63,369 nucleotides of DNA from NCBI GenBank assembly GCA_018004935.1, contig JAGNBF010000038.1:1-63369 (forward strand). Direction: 5' to 3'. Each line of letters opens with the position of its first letter. Position 1 is the stretch's first letter. The notes beneath the pieces are model-generated. The model was given only the letters and a program-made list of their open reading frames with translations, was not told the origin of the DNA and ran no database searches. This DNA comes from Chloroflexota bacterium. Lineage in GTDB: Bacteria > Chloroflexota > Anaerolineae > Promineifilales > Promineifilaceae. A program made the position numbers and the translations under genes. Positions 34,470-42,479 of the stretch are shown here, one piece after another.

Positions 34470-34668
34470 TAATGGGGTTGATGGTTTTTTGCACATGTTG
34501 TAACTACTTGAGTTTAGAGTTCAGAGCCAGAGTTAGAGGGTTTTCCAGAGTAATTTCCTCTCACTCTCTCCTGTCGCTCTAAACTCCAGTAATTACTATA
34601 TTTTTTGTTCCATATGCCTGTCAAAAGGGGATAACACTATGTATAACCACCAGAAGAGGATGTCATCA

Positions 34669-36231
34669 ATGAGTAAGCTGGGGAAGAATGGGTGGTCTTT
34701 TTTCTTGCTCTTGTGTCTGGTGTGGCTGGGAGTCGCCTGTGGTGGGACGGCCAGTACGGAAGAAGTGCCTACGCTTGTTAATATCGCAGAAGTGCCCACA
34801 GAAGCCCCGACACTTTTGCCTACGTCAACTTTGCCCCCTACTTCGACACCGGTGACGCCGGTTACGATGACACCCACCCAGACGCCGCTCCCAGATGACG
34901 CGGCCGCGACGCCGCTCTCAACCTTGCCCCCCACCAATACAATTGCCACTCCGGCTGTCATTCCCACACACACCCGGGCTATTCCCACAAATACACCCCG
35001 CATTCCTACCAGCACATTTACTCCCCTGGCGACCTTTACCTTTACCCCTTCGCCGACGCCTACAGTTACGAACACCCCCACACCCAATCCTATTGTCTGG
35101 CAGGGTGAATATTTTAATAACCGGGATTTATCGGGCGCGGCCGCGGCCGTGCGTGATGATGCTAACTTGAGCTTTAACTGGGGTACAGGAACCCCCATCA
35201 ACAACTTACCTGTAGATAATTTTTCTGTCCGCTGGACACGGGTAGTACAACTGGCCCCGGCTACTTACCGCTTCTATGCCCGCGCCGATGATGGGGTACG
35301 TATCTGGATTGACAATGAACAGATCATCAATGAATGGCATGATGCCACACCCCAAACTTATAGCGTGGAACGCACGGTAGCCGCCGGTAATCACACCATC
35401 AAGGTGGAGTACTTCGAAAACATTGGTACGGCTCAAATACAGGTGTGGTGGGAGCAATCAGGGCAATTCCCCCAGTGGCGCGGTGAATATTTCAATAACG
35501 CCACCCTCAGCGGCGCAGTCGTTCTTCTCCGTAATGATGCGGATATTAACTTTAACTGGGCGGGCAGTGCTCCAGACTCCAGCCTTCCTAGTGACAATTT
35601 CTCCGCCCGTTGGACTCGCACCATGAGTTTTAACGCCGGACATTACCGCTTTAGTGCCACCGTGGATGATGGTGCACGTGTTTACCTGGATAGTGTGCTT
35701 ATTATTGATGAGTGGCGTGATGGGTCAGAACGCACCGTTACTGTGGAACTGGATGTGACAGCGGCGACCCATTTGCTTCAGGTGGAATATTACGACCGGA
35801 GTGGGGATGCCCGCATTCGCGTCTGGTGGGAATTCTTAAATAGCGGTTATCCCGATTGGCAAGGGGAGTATTGGACTAATACTTCCCTGAATGGCACCCC
35901 CACCGTCACTCGTAATGATGTGGCGATTGATTTCGACTGGGGCACGGGTGCTCCCGCAAATGGCATTCCTGCGGATAATTTCAGCGTTCGCTGGACACGA
36001 ACCGTTAACCTGACCGGTGGTCGCTATCGGTTCCACACTGAGGTGGATGATGGGGTACGGGTATATATAGATGGGAATCTCATCATTAATGAGTGGCATG
36101 GCTATACCGCACCCCCAATTTACGAAGCGGAAGTGAATCTGGGGAACGGCAACCACGCAATTACTGTTGAGTATTTGGAGTTGGAGCAGGGGGCGTGGAT
36201 TAGCTTCACTTATCAGCGGATAGGAGATTAA
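34669..36231 (+). CDS. Lipoprotein with three PA14-type domains
   Basis: 520 residues. Lipoprotein signal [20 protein letters not shown] ending in the lipobox GVAC, then a Thr/Pro-rich stalk of about 120 residues, then three tandem PA14-like domains (nucleotides about 35098-35456, 35476-35831, 35857-36228). Each has a start W-x-GEY-x-N, a central D-N-F-S-x-R-W-T-R, DDGxRxxID and a final xVEYxE. PA14 domains are beta-barrels that bind glycans on surface proteins; the ligand is unknown. The ATG at 34669 gives the best signal peptide; 34639 and 34660 are possible. It stands alone, followed by repeats. Confidence 0.88.
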
Positions 36232-38167: not shown

Positions 38168-39961
38168 CTACGCCTTCTTTTGCCACAACTTCATCGCCAC
38201 CATCGCCACGGGGATGGCCGCGGCCGCGATCACGGCCAACGCGACTGGCACATTGACCTTTTTGGGCTGGCTGTGGCCGTTGCTATGACCGTTGGCCCCG
38301 TGCCCGTTGACGAGATGGGGATAACGCGTCTGCCAGGGTTGCGCGGCCGCGGGGACTTTGCTCATCGCCCGCTCGGCCATCGCCGTGATGGTCAGGCTGG
38401 GGTTCACCCCCAAATTGGCCGGGATGACCGAGCCATCTACCACGTACATGCCAGGATAGTTGAACACCTCATGGTTCAGGTCTACCACCCCTCTGGTCTC
38501 GTCCTGCCCAATACCACAACCCCCGAGAATGTGGGCGGTGGATGGGGTATCGAGCAAGGCTTCGTTGATGGTGCTCTGGGGGATGCCGTTGACCCGCTCG
38601 GCGAACATGTTGAGCACCTGCCGCCCGGCGTCAATGACGGCGGGAATGGGCAGGGATTTGTCCCGTTCGCTGACAAGCCCTTTGAAGAAGAGGGTAAACA
38701 GGTTGCGGCCGCGGCTCAAATGCATTCGGTTCTCTACCGTCTGCATCACAAGCAAAATCGTGCCATCCCGCGCCCAGTCGGGCAAAATCCGCGCCTTCAA
38801 CAAATCATACGGGTTACGCAAACCATAAGCGACAAAACCCAACATCCGGCGCAGTGGCCCACCCTTCAAATCAGTCAATGGCACGGCCAGATTCCGCAAC
38901 AGCGACGAGCCACGCGGGTAGCGCACAGGCTCCACACTCGTCACCTCATCAATCCAAAAGTGGGACGTAATCGCTACCCCCTGCGAGAAATCGTCACTCT
39001 CTTCCCGTGCCGTCACCCCTAGCAGAGCCTCACTGTTGCTCCGCACCATCTTACCTAGCCGCGCCGATAGTTTGGGCAGGGATTGGGTCTCATTCCGCAG
39101 ACGCAGGAGCAAATTCAGCGTCCCCAACACCCCCGCCGCTACCACCACATTGCGCGTCCGCACCACCGTTTTCGGTTTGATCAACCAGGCAGTTGTCCGC
39201 TCATACACAATTTCATACCGTGCCCCGTCCGGTTCCCCTTCTGGTAGAGGCCGAATATCCACCACATTGGCTTCCGGGCGCACTTCCGCCCCCCACTTCT
39301 CCGCCAGATACAGGTAATTTTTGTCCAGCGTGTTTTTAGCGTTGTGGCGGCAACCAACCATACAACCGCCACAATGGATACACCCGGCCCGGTCTGGCCC
39401 TTCGCCATCGAAGTACGGATCGGGCACGGTTTTGCCCTGTTCACCAAAGAAAATCGCCACCGGCGTGGGCTTGAAGGTGTGTTCTTGCCCTAACTCGGTG
39501 GCGATCTCTTTCAAAATATAGTCGGCGGCCCAAAATTTGGGGTTGGGCACAACACCGAGCATCCGGTTGGCGGTGTCGTAATGGGGTTCCAACTCGGCTT
39601 CCCAATCCGCCAGCCCCTTCCATTCCTCGGCCTCGAAGAAGGTTTGGCCCGGTTTGATGTGGGTGCTGGCGTAGACCAGACTGCCGCCGCCCACCCCGGA
39701 ACCGTTAAGGATGAGGATGTCATTGAGAAAATTCAGCCCCATGTAGCCAAAGCAACGTAGGGCGGGCATCCAGAGAAATTTAGGCACATTCCAGTTCGTT
39801 TTGGGGAAATCCTCGGCGTTGTACCGTTTGCCCCGCTCCAGGACGAGGACACGATACCCCTTTTCGGTCAGGCGCATGGCCGAGACACTACCGCCAAAAC
39901 CGGAACCGACGATCACATGGTCAAACGTATCACCAGCGGGGACGGATTTGTTCAGGTGCAT
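38168..39961 (-). CDS. GMC-type FAD oxidoreductase with C-terminal membrane anchor
   Basis: 597 residues. N-terminal FAD-binding VIVGSGFGGSVSAMRL (about 16-31) with GVGGGSLVY further on; a cysteine-rich CIHCGGCMVGC at about 193-203, seen in the cholesterol-oxidase-like/glucose-methanol-choline family; C-terminal GMC motif region with AHILGGCGIG, and NPSLTITAMAERAM. The last 25 residues (VPVALAVIAAAAIPVAMVAM plus KLWQKKA) are a membrane anchor after an N/H/G-rich linker. Together with the anchored aldehyde dehydrogenase downstream it suggests a membrane-bound route alcohol to aldehyde to acid, perhaps for fatty alcohols or sterol-like substrates (inference). No recognisable signal peptide. Confidence 0.88.
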   Translation of the reverse strand: MHLNKSVPAGDTFDHVIVGSGFGGSVSAMRLTEKGYRVLVLERGKRYNAEDFPKTNWNVPKFLWMPALRCFGYMGLNFLNDILILNGSGVGGGSLVYASTHIKPGQTFFEAEEWKGLADWEAELEPHYDTANRMLGVVPNPKFWAADYILKEIATELGQEHTFKPTPVAIFFGEQGKTVPDPYFDGEGPDRAGCIHCGGCMVGCRHNAKNTLDKNYLYLAEKWGAEVRPEANVVDIRPLPEGEPDGARYEIVYERTTAWLIKPKTVVRTRNVVVAAGVLGTLNLLLRLRNETQSLPKLSARLGKMVRSNSEALLGVTAREESDDFSQGVAITSHFWIDEVTSVEPVRYPRGSSLLRNLAVPLTDLKGGPLRRMLGFVAYGLRNPYDLLKARILPDWARDGTILLVMQTVENRMHLSRGRNLFTLFFKGLVSERDKSLPIPAVIDAGRQVLNMFAERVNGIPQSTINEALLDTPSTAHILGGCGIGQDETRGVVDLNHEVFNYPGMYVVDGSVIPANLGVNPSLTITAMAERAMSKVPAAAQPWQTRYPHLVNGHGANGHSNGHSQPKKVNVPVALAVIAAAAIPVAMVAMKLWQKKA

Positions 39962-40208
39962 AGGACAATACCTTTTGGAAGCTAGAGGGCAGAGCCAGAG
40001 TTAGAGGAATTCTATCTCCGGCTAAACTCTGACTCAATGGTTAAGCGAGAGCTAAAGCCAGGACGAGGTTTTTTCCTCTAGCTCTCGCTCTAGCTCCATC
40101 CTCTTATAACACAGTGCGTTATAATTTTAGCCTTTTCGCAGGAATTGTCTATGTGAGTTTGGGAGGGAAAGAACTGAGGGATGGATAGATATACTTGAAG
40201 GGATCAAG
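39962..40208. other. Short intergenic repeat region upstream of the GMC gene
   Basis: Holds AGAGCCAGAGTTAGAGG (shared with 34523-34540) and a long imperfect inverted repeat GCGAGAGCTA / TAGCTCTCGC around 40044-40095 with TTTTTT between its arms. The inverted repeat could act as terminator of the restriction gene at its left end. Confidence 0.6.
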
Positions 40209-41309
40209 TTACGGTACAACAATTTCATTGATAGGTCTACTCTCTGCCAGGCGTTTGAGTAACTGTTGTAAGTCCGGCTTGATGGGAGTGCGGATCATGT
40301 CCTGAAAACTGGGTTCACTACGAATTCCTGTGGCAATTGGGCCAGCATAAAGTTGATGATCTTTTAATTCGATGATATCAGTAGGGTTTTGTTGTTGGCT
40401 ACCATACGAGAAACTGAGCATATTGACTTCCGACGAATGGGTGGTAATGAATTGCCGCAAATCCAAAGCTGTGGACGCCGAAATATAGTCGGCTAATGTA
40501 TCTTGCACTAACCACACAGCCTTACCGCCCCAATGCAGGGCTACTTCTGATTTGACGATCAACTGGCTGACCATTCTCGCCCAAACTTGTCGCTTGTTAA
40601 TAGATGGAGCATTGTGTGGTCGTGCTAACAAAGCATCTTCAAAAGCCTGCGCAATGGTCGTTCGCTGAGCCTTATTCCCCCCAGATGTGCTAGAAGTCAT
40701 AATTTCAATGATGCCAGGTATACCAACCGGGCAATCTTCTACAAAATCTTCGTCGTTGTGCCTGATGATAGTATACCCGCCTTGCACAAATACTTTGCGC
40801 CATAACGCCCACGGTGCGAAAAAGGTCGCCAACTGGCTTTGACTAACCGAAGCAATAGGCATCACAATGTAATCGAAGGTATAGTCGAAAGTTTTCGTAA
40901 GACCTTGCCTGGTTTCCGCAAACTTCAGTTTAACCTCTGACCAGACACCCAGCCGTGTACCGGATGGAAAGCCTAATATCCGCACAAGTTCTGCCTCTAC
41001 ATTCATCTGATAGGCTCGTTTGAATGCCTTTTTGCTCCCTAAGATCAGCAACCGCCGAGGACAAACAACCCAGGGTGTTTCATCTTCACGTAGTTGAATG
41101 GAACATACACCAACCGCTACAACTCTCCGCTCTCCAAAATAGGTTTTGAGTAGTTCATTTCTCGTCAAATCTACCTGTGAAGAATAACGATTGCCACCCC
41201 CATCACAAGGCCCCCCCATAAATGGGCAATGTGCAGTATGCCGGGTTTCTTCTGCTATTGGGGTTTTGACGGATAAGGGGTAACCAAATAGTTCATAGAT
41301 TTGGGGCAT
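40209..41309 (-). CDS. NotI-family type II restriction endonuclease
   Basis: 366 residues, close to NotI (383). Points seen in both by recall of the NotI sequence: an N-terminal FG-Y/H start, a Cys-Pro-Phe (C28) in AHCPF, a second Cys (C35), GVC (C69), W-x-V-C-P-x-R-x-L (C83, WVVCPRRLL), an F-D-Y/W segment (D146), and GI-IEIMT (E202; NotI has EIQT). NotI uses a Cys4 iron site and a PD-(D/E)XK fold; the four cysteines here match in order. The Asp-to-Glu spacing is longer than in NotI, so an insertion is likely. It starts 17 bp inside the methyltransferase gene, AAGG spaced before ATG 41309. It lies in the longest stretch without GCGGCCGC. Exact specificity is not shown by sequence. Confidence 0.8.
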   Translation of the reverse strand: MPQIYELFGYPLSVKTPIAEETRHTAHCPFMGGPCDGGGNRYSSQVDLTRNELLKTYFGERRVVAVGVCSIQLREDETPWVVCPRRLLILGSKKAFKRAYQMNVEAELVRILGFPSGTRLGVWSEVKLKFAETRQGLTKTFDYTFDYIVMPIASVSQSQLATFFAPWALWRKVFVQGGYTIIRHNDEDFVEDCPVGIPGIIEIMTSSTSGGNKAQRTTIAQAFEDALLARPHNAPSINKRQVWARMVSQLIVKSEVALHWGGKAVWLVQDTLADYISASTALDLRQFITTHSSEVNMLSFSYGSQQQNPTDIIELKDHQLYAGPIATGIRSEPSFQDMIRTPIKPDLQQLLKRLAESRPINEIVVP

Positions 41310-42420
41310 TAAACACCTTGATGATTTCTGTGGCAAGGGCATGAGCAACTGGTGGTGGGACAGAATTAGCGACCTGGCGATGTTGATCCAGGCGACGCGC
41401 ACGCCCAGAACGTCCACGAATAGGGCCACGGAGAATATATTCATCCGGGTAGCCATGAATACGCATATATTCACGGGGGGTTAGATAGCGATTATCTGTA
41501 GGGTGAAAAAATATTTCGCCACAACGCAATGTATTAGACGGTTCTTGTCTTGAAAGTCGTTTGAACTTGGTTGTGTCTTTTTTCGTCAAATTACAGCGTT
41601 GTTCCTTGGGCAAATGGTGTTGTGCCGCTAAATGCGAACCTTCCGGGACACCATTGATGCGAAAACGGTCACCACTCGGCGTAACATCTAAGTGGCTGTT
41701 TTCAGGAATATATCCATTTTGCGGATAGGGGGAACCCAAACCATTGAGTACTTCGCCTACTGTTATAAACGGAGGCAAAGAAAAGAGGGGTGTCGTTTTA
41801 CCTTGTGCATTATGGGTGGGTTCTGGGAATTGGTAATTATTTGGTCTAAGGGTGGCTACAATAAACACCCTCTGGCGAAGTTGAGCCACACCATATTCGG
41901 CAGAGTTAACAACCTTCCATTTAGGCACATAACCTAATACTTCTAGTTCTAGCAACAGTTGTTCAAAAGCTCCCCCAGGCTTACCGTTTTCATCAGGTGA
42001 ATTAAGTAAACCCTTCACTTGTTCAATGAGAATGGCACGGGGCTTAAAGATTGCCGCAAAACGTGTCATTTCAAAGAGCAATAAACCACGTGAATCATTC
42101 AGACTGTGCCGTTTACCAATTTGGGAAAATGCTTGACAAGGGGGACCGCCACATAATAAATCCAATTGACCACTGGCTAAGGATAGTTCAGCCATTAGCA
42201 TAGCAGGATCGATCTGGCGAATGTCTTTTTCAATTACTTTTGTCTGCAATTGTTCGCGCTGAATATTGTCACGGAGCGTTTCGCAGGCATAGGGATCGAG
42301 TTCAACACAGGCCAATACATCGAATCCAGCTTGCCTGACACCAATATCCATCCCCCCTGCTCCCGAAAATAAGGATAAGGCTCTGAACTTGTTTTTCGTC
42401 GTTACAATTGCATTTTCCAT
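41293..42420 (-). CDS. DNA cytosine-5 methyltransferase
   Basis: 375 residues with ordered C5-methyltransferase motifs: I LSLFSGAGGMDIG (15-27), IV GGPPCQAFS with catalytic C95, VI as IEQV (E133; the common form is ENV), VIII YGVAQLRQRVFIVA (176-189), a variable target-recognition region, and IX/X ending in QVANSVPPPVAHALA near 360. It methylates carbon 5 of a cytosine in a specific DNA site. Paired with the overlapping endonuclease gene, it is probably the protective methylase of a type II system. Composition is more A/T-rich than neighbours and it contains no GCGGCCGC, consistent with recent transfer. Confidence 0.93.
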   Translation of the reverse strand: MENAIVTTKNKFRALSLFSGAGGMDIGVRQAGFDVLACVELDPYACETLRDNIQREQLQTKVIEKDIRQIDPAMLMAELSLASGQLDLLCGGPPCQAFSQIGKRHSLNDSRGLLLFEMTRFAAIFKPRAILIEQVKGLLNSPDENGKPGGAFEQLLLELEVLGYVPKWKVVNSAEYGVAQLRQRVFIVATLRPNNYQFPEPTHNAQGKTTPLFSLPPFITVGEVLNGLGSPYPQNGYIPENSHLDVTPSGDRFRINGVPEGSHLAAQHHLPKEQRCNLTKKDTTKFKRLSRQEPSNTLRCGEIFFHPTDNRYLTPREYMRIHGYPDEYILRGPIRGRSGRARRLDQHRQVANSVPPPVAHALATEIIKVFNAPNL

Positions 42421-42479
42421 GCGAAAATTTTAGCACACATGCTCTAAGGGGAAAACCTTTGCGCGGCCGCATCCTGCAC

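Follow-up and report, generated by a model that had tools for sequence, protein, structure and literature searches.

Lineage dialects of a HIP1-like CGGCCG palindrome and a predicted NotI-superfamily restriction-modification pair in a family of Chloroflexota

The restriction endonuclease NotI cuts the octamer GCGGCCGC. What HIP1 does, and whether methylation creates it, have been open questions since its description in cyanobacteria. HIP1 is GCGATCGC with the core CGATCG, alternate HIPs also occur in cyanobacteria, and the near-misses of cyanobacterial HIP1 pile up at the outer letter and not in the core (Elhai 2015, PMC4390886). Here we analysed a stretch of 63,369 bases (the window) from a Chloroflexota genome of 7.98 Mb (G000; other G numbers are comparison genomes) and found that GCGGCCGC is one of several dialects of a CGGCCG element present across its family, a Chloroflexota counterpart of HIP1. 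Like HIP1 and the alternate HIPs, the elements of this family are GC-rich 8-base palindromes at roughly one to two per kb with a fixed 6-base core and a variable outer letter, have alternate versions in single lineages, and come with candidate methyltransferases. They differ from HIP1 in belonging to another phylum, in their core (CGGCCG, not CGATCG), in having three outer letters within one family, and in their candidate enzyme, a DUF1156-like protein whose gene is linked to one for a NotI-type endonuclease. The original prediction for this DNA had drawn the comparison with HIP1, which was apt in spirit, including the role given to the CGGCCG core, and had tentatively linked the octamer to a NotI-like endonuclease and methyltransferase pair encoded in the window. 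On balance we favour a different reading, which we consider moderately likely as a whole: the pair is a mobile NotI-superfamily system rather than the octamer's main partner, GCGGCCGC is a dialect of a CGGCCG palindrome targeted by a methyltransferase, most likely a DUF1156-like enzyme, and replacement of that enzyme's gene at a second locus, on contig C49, may have switched the dialect.

The octamer was abundant throughout the window and the genome.

1 to 63,369, no strand: GCGGCCGC at 104 places across the window, about 1.6 per kb

Only 1.8 copies were expected in the window, and no shuffle gave more than 4. A 393 kb sample of G000 contained 589 copies versus 9.9 expected, and the whole genome contained 12,040 versus 2 for the reversed control CGCCGGCG, which is itself depleted. 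The predicted enrichment of NotI sites therefore held in the window and genome-wide and, as with HIP-type elements, GCGGCCGC is a palindromic octamer far above expectation across the genome. Amplification to such a level was found solely in G000 among 52 family genomes and 199 class genomes. Outer-letter near-misses were not enriched in G000 (0.71 of expectation), as specificity for eight bases would give, which suggests that the full octamer is the unit there. Other palindromes were avoided to an extreme degree in the 393 kb sample (GAGCTC 0 vs 52, GGGCCC 6 vs 277, GTCGAC 1 vs 56), and GCCGGC occurred just 51 times in the 7.98 Mb.

Across the family, the CGGCCG core is constant and the outer letters are a lineage dialect. 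ACGGCCGT was present at 2,887–15,176 copies in 29 of the 52 family genomes, and G205 had a third dialect, TCGGCCGA (49 in 40 kb, 46 times expectation). Genome G151 carried CGGCCG with any flanks and no flank preference (269 in 56 kb vs 23 expected). Whole-genome counts of CGGCCG exceeded those of the reversed control GCCGGC in most family members, with ratios of 13,814:51 in G000, 21,019:132 in G151, and 21,935:4,294 in G203. Near-misses in the ACGGCCGT and TCGGCCGA genomes reached 2.3–4.9 times expectation at the outer letter (G220, G209, G203, G225, and G205) and stayed around expectation at the inner letters. A solitary C5 methyltransferase was found in G238, G239, and G151, all three rich in bare CGGCCG. 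A literature search on ACGGCCGT, NotI-site enrichment in Chloroflexi, and the NotI methyltransferase returned nothing relevant, within a coverage that leaves out most subscription journals. HIP1-like behaviour in a second, unrelated clade, with several dialects in one family, makes the question of what such elements do testable.

The predicted restriction-modification genes lie in an octamer-free part of the window.

40,209 to 41,309, minus strand: NotI-fold type II restriction endonuclease gene, about 366 aa (from the open reading frame, relatives, the AF2 model, and hhalign)
41,293 to 42,420, minus strand: C5-cytosine DNA methyltransferase gene, 375 aa (PF00145 DNA_methylase, E 1.6e-62)
38,713 to 42,462, no strand: octamer-free stretch with both genes and the greater part of the adjacent gene (38,168–39,961)

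Both genes are on the minus strand and the methyltransferase gene overlaps the start of the endonuclease gene by 17 bases, which, with the PF00145 match, agrees with the prediction that the endonuclease is encoded with a C5-cytosine methyltransferase. Alignment with relatives placed the endonuclease start at the ATG at 41,309; the mechanical start of the open reading frame (GTG, 41,474) is too early. The G+C content of the two genes was 0.458 vs 0.545 for the remainder of the window. The 3,758 bases between octamer starts around the pair form the largest gap in the window, and gaps this long made up 4 of 568 sampled in G000. Elsewhere in the window, a lipoprotein-like open reading frame on the plus strand (34,639–36,231) contains three similar blocks that look PA14-like by eye only.

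An AF2 model of the endonuclease (pLDDT 92) aligned in VIA-align with NotI bound to DNA (3c25; Z 19.6, 241 residues, rmsd 2.9) and with NotI lacking DNA (3bvq; Z 18.6), with 241–244 residues aligned across the two entries and the third-ranked entry at only Z 4.8. Foldseek alone returned no NotI match for this model. In hhalign, the profile of the window family matched seven NotI-family proteins at 99.0% probability (E 3.8e-18), and that set of seven retrieved NotI 3bvq from the PDB at E 3.6e-9. Neither the window endonuclease nor three close orthologues matched Pfam PF12183 (NotI) up to E 1, and when the PDB was searched by sequence with this family, NotI came up at E 0.7–2 only; a flagellar protein match in that search (E 8.7e-4 to 0.023) was taken as chance. 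Judged from the predicted structure and the profile comparison, the endonuclease is a member of the NotI superfamily, which bears out the original assignment.

The residues named in that assignment also recurred. In an alignment of 57 sequences, built from 80 public relatives, C28, C35, and C83 were invariant and C69 nearly so (the Cys4 cluster), and WIVCPRRL and EIMTSSTSGG were conserved. The proposed EI(Q/M)T motif kept its position, but its alternative residues did not hold within the family, which invariably has EIMT, with M for the Q of NotI. D146 and E202 were invariant, as was M204 where NotI relatives have the invariant Q of ExQ; D146, E202, and M204 are candidate catalytic residues. 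The window enzyme thus resembles NotI (3bvq, 3c25; PF12183) in fold, in the Cys4 cluster, and in the positions of the FDYxxV and EIxT motifs, and differs in falling below Pfam detection, in its 18% identity over the structural alignment, in the M of ExQ, and in a long insertion at 160–198. The pair represents a large, widely spread branch of the NotI superfamily that Pfam misses. NotI-family systems on plasmids of Sedimenticola thiotaurini and Pseudomonas amygdali have a C5 methyltransferase followed by a NotI-type endonuclease, as in the window, but the methyltransferases are only 29% identical to that of the window and the endonucleases at best 25%, over part of the protein. On plasmids of Thermus brockianus and Burkholderia cepacia, NotI-family endonucleases adjoin a gene annotated as DNA adenine methylase, so the targets of those enzymes should contain an A.

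Close copies of the pair were rare in the family, occurring in three of the 51 other genomes (G230, G220, and G209; 4/52 with G000). Their methyltransferases were 61–65% identical to that of the window with a conserved target-recognition region, and the orthologous endonuclease followed in the same order, with overlap or adjacency as in G000. By this conserved gene order the pair is a predicted type II restriction-modification unit. A first scan for related loci with a two-sequence alignment gave no matches; in all, about 100 relatives are scattered over many phyla. The octamer-free, low-G+C stretch, the rarity in the family, and the relatives in many phyla make the pair look imported, as though a mobile restriction-modification system had entered a genome already studded with octamers. 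A Vsr mismatch endonuclease gene (PF03852, E 8.2e-30) adjoins the window-type pair in G230 (L024, 2574–3056), and a Vsr-like gene adjoins a C5 methyltransferase in G067 (L211, 2575–3033).

The pair-bearing relatives contained 692 (G230), 465 (G220), and 99 (G209) copies of GCGGCCGC. G220 and G209 were instead rich in ACGGCCGT, G230 had neither octamer dialect, and the CGGCCG excess in G230 (2.9) matched that of pair-free sister genomes (2.97, 2.82). This survey of relatives did not support the window pair as the octamer's partner, given its presence in so few genomes and the unamplified GCGGCCGC in the other three, and the pair is probably not the main reason for the abundance of NotI sites in G000. 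CGGCCG and GCGGCCGC showed no notable avoidance in 77–80 pair-bearing loci. GGGCCC was the lowest palindrome in these loci (0.20–0.26 of second-order expectation) and was considered as the pair's target, but it was equally rare in G067 and G114, relatives without the pair, and its avoidance is uninformative.

The likeliest enzyme for the octamer is a DUF1156-like methyltransferase, some 660 aa long, whose PF01555 matches are split; the link is correlational. Using tblastn, we found it in six of seven ACGGCCGT genomes, chosen for having few other methyltransferases (G203, G223, G221, G208, G167, and G225), with copies 51–57% identical to that of G000; the G221 copy is split over two contigs and the G208 copy is partial. 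The seventh, G232 (78% complete), had no tblastn match. Four genomes without an octamer dialect (G211, G217, G234, and G194) had no PF01555 match, an absence that is not firm because the detection margin is narrow and DUF1156-like proteins score weakly (4.6e-4 in G203). The contrast of 6/7 with 0/4 has a hypergeometric probability of 0.015, calculated by hand from genomes that are related and counts that are not independent. The simple presence of PF01555 or PF00145 failed as a correlate of the octamer, and ordinary PF01555 enzymes were nearly missing from some of the octamer-richest genomes, such as G203. No endonuclease gene was found beside the DUF1156-like gene in G203, G223, G167, or G225, the four with intact neighbourhoods, where the neighbours read were housekeeping-like genes, and in G000, G212, and G218 it directly adjoins a NotI-type endonuclease recognised by Pfam. 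Presence in genomes with iterated palindromes and linkage to NotI-type nucleases are two independent lines that point to nCGGCCGn as the putative target. The weakest step of the explanation is action on cytosine: the enzyme has a DPPY motif, which is commoner in adenine methyltransferases, and since GCGGCCGC contains no A, it would have to methylate C there. That some genomes have hardly any other methyltransferases, and that the candidate lies next to a NotI-type nuclease, also helps to make the role of the palindrome testable.

The G000 copy of this enzyme lies on contig C49 (L011) next to a second NotI-type endonuclease.

13,973 to 13,761, minus strand: remnant of another DUF1156-like methyltransferase copy, 71 codons
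13,663 to 12,860, minus strand: second NotI-type endonuclease of G000 (Pfam NotI, E 5.5e-11)
12,824 to 10,794, minus strand: complete DUF1156-like methyltransferase

The next gene on this strand encodes 401 aa and is also the downstream neighbour of the methyltransferase in G225 (45% identical). The remnant is 71% identical to the G225 methyltransferase and 68% to the neighbouring complete copy. This arrangement suggests that the locus of an ancestral orphan methyltransferase took up a NotI-type unit by recombination. In the mechanism that we favour, the iterated palindrome would be the target of a methyltransferase, and methylated palindromes would be favoured or created and would accumulate by a HIP1-like process. 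An incoming unit of NotI-type endonuclease and methyltransferase would have replaced the C49 copy and, as a single event, may have turned the dialect from ACGGCCGT into GCGGCCGC. In the window pair, the C5 methyltransferase would protect, and the NotI-fold nuclease would cut, one common target. The NotI-linked unit is present in G212 and G218, where the dialect is still ACGGCCGT, and no in-place conversion of ACGGCCGT to GCGGCCGC was seen at orthologous leuB sites. We propose only tentatively the fuller version, in which the orphan DUF1156-like methyltransferase sets the palindrome dialect of the family and capture of a NotI-type unit at its locus rewrote the dialect of an entire chromosome, with roughly 12,000 sites passing from ACGGCCGT to GCGGCCGC.

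Three other accounts of the octamer bear on this reading. The model of the original prediction, in which GCGGCCGC or CGGCCG is the recognition site of the window's C5 methyltransferase and the octamers serve that enzyme's mark, is improbable in our judgement. It draws on the kinship of the endonuclease with an enzyme that cuts GCGGCCGC, and GTGGCCGC, which differs from GCGGCCGC by C-to-T at position 2, occurred 37 times in 393 kb vs 20.8 expected, weakly as 5-methylcytosine at that position would lead one to expect. Against it are the three relatives with closely similar methyltransferases and no amplified GCGGCCGC, one of which (G230) lacks any octamer dialect despite carrying the pair, the imported look of the window locus, and the 14 of 29 ACGGCCGT genomes with no detectable C5 methyltransferase. 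The palindrome could also be a binding site for a chromosome protein (segregation, replication, nucleoid, or uptake), with methyltransferases merely tracking lineages. A genome-wide density of one to two sites per kb would suit such a role, as would the failure to find the DUF1156-like enzyme in G232 and the placement of coding octamers mostly in one frame (252/397), which implies that they are tolerated within proteins. We nevertheless regard a binding site as unlikely: the CGGCCG core matches targets of the NotI/EagI type, genes for NotI-type endonucleases adjoin that of the candidate methyltransferase in three genomes, and modification enzymes change dialect easily.

Each dialect may instead have an enzyme of its own, DUF1156-like in the octamer genomes and an orphan C5 methyltransferase with bare CGGCCG, each independently driving its own palindrome, with the window pair perhaps among several drivers. 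G151, G238, G239, and G067, with 19,000–22,000 copies of CGGCCG, share a cluster of C5 methyltransferases (66–76% identical; L210, L212, and L228), and no endonuclease lay beside these genes in the loci read. These are only four genomes, picked after the fact, and G067 has a high G+C content and a high GCCGGC control (12,539), and we hold this arrangement to be possible but doubtful. The reading with a DUF1156-like methyltransferase as the family's likeliest enzyme and the window pair as a later arrival remains the one that we prefer.

Other iterated palindromes turned up as well. In G216 (L278–L281), TGCCGGCA occurred 27 times in 23 kb, 21 times expectation, and CGGCCG was strongly depleted (1 vs 17.7). 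Three genomes of genus g36 in the same class (G028, G062, and G090) each hold about 4,200 copies of CGCCGGCG in some 3 Mb, so that CGCCGGCG is probably a further iterated palindrome, in a different family.
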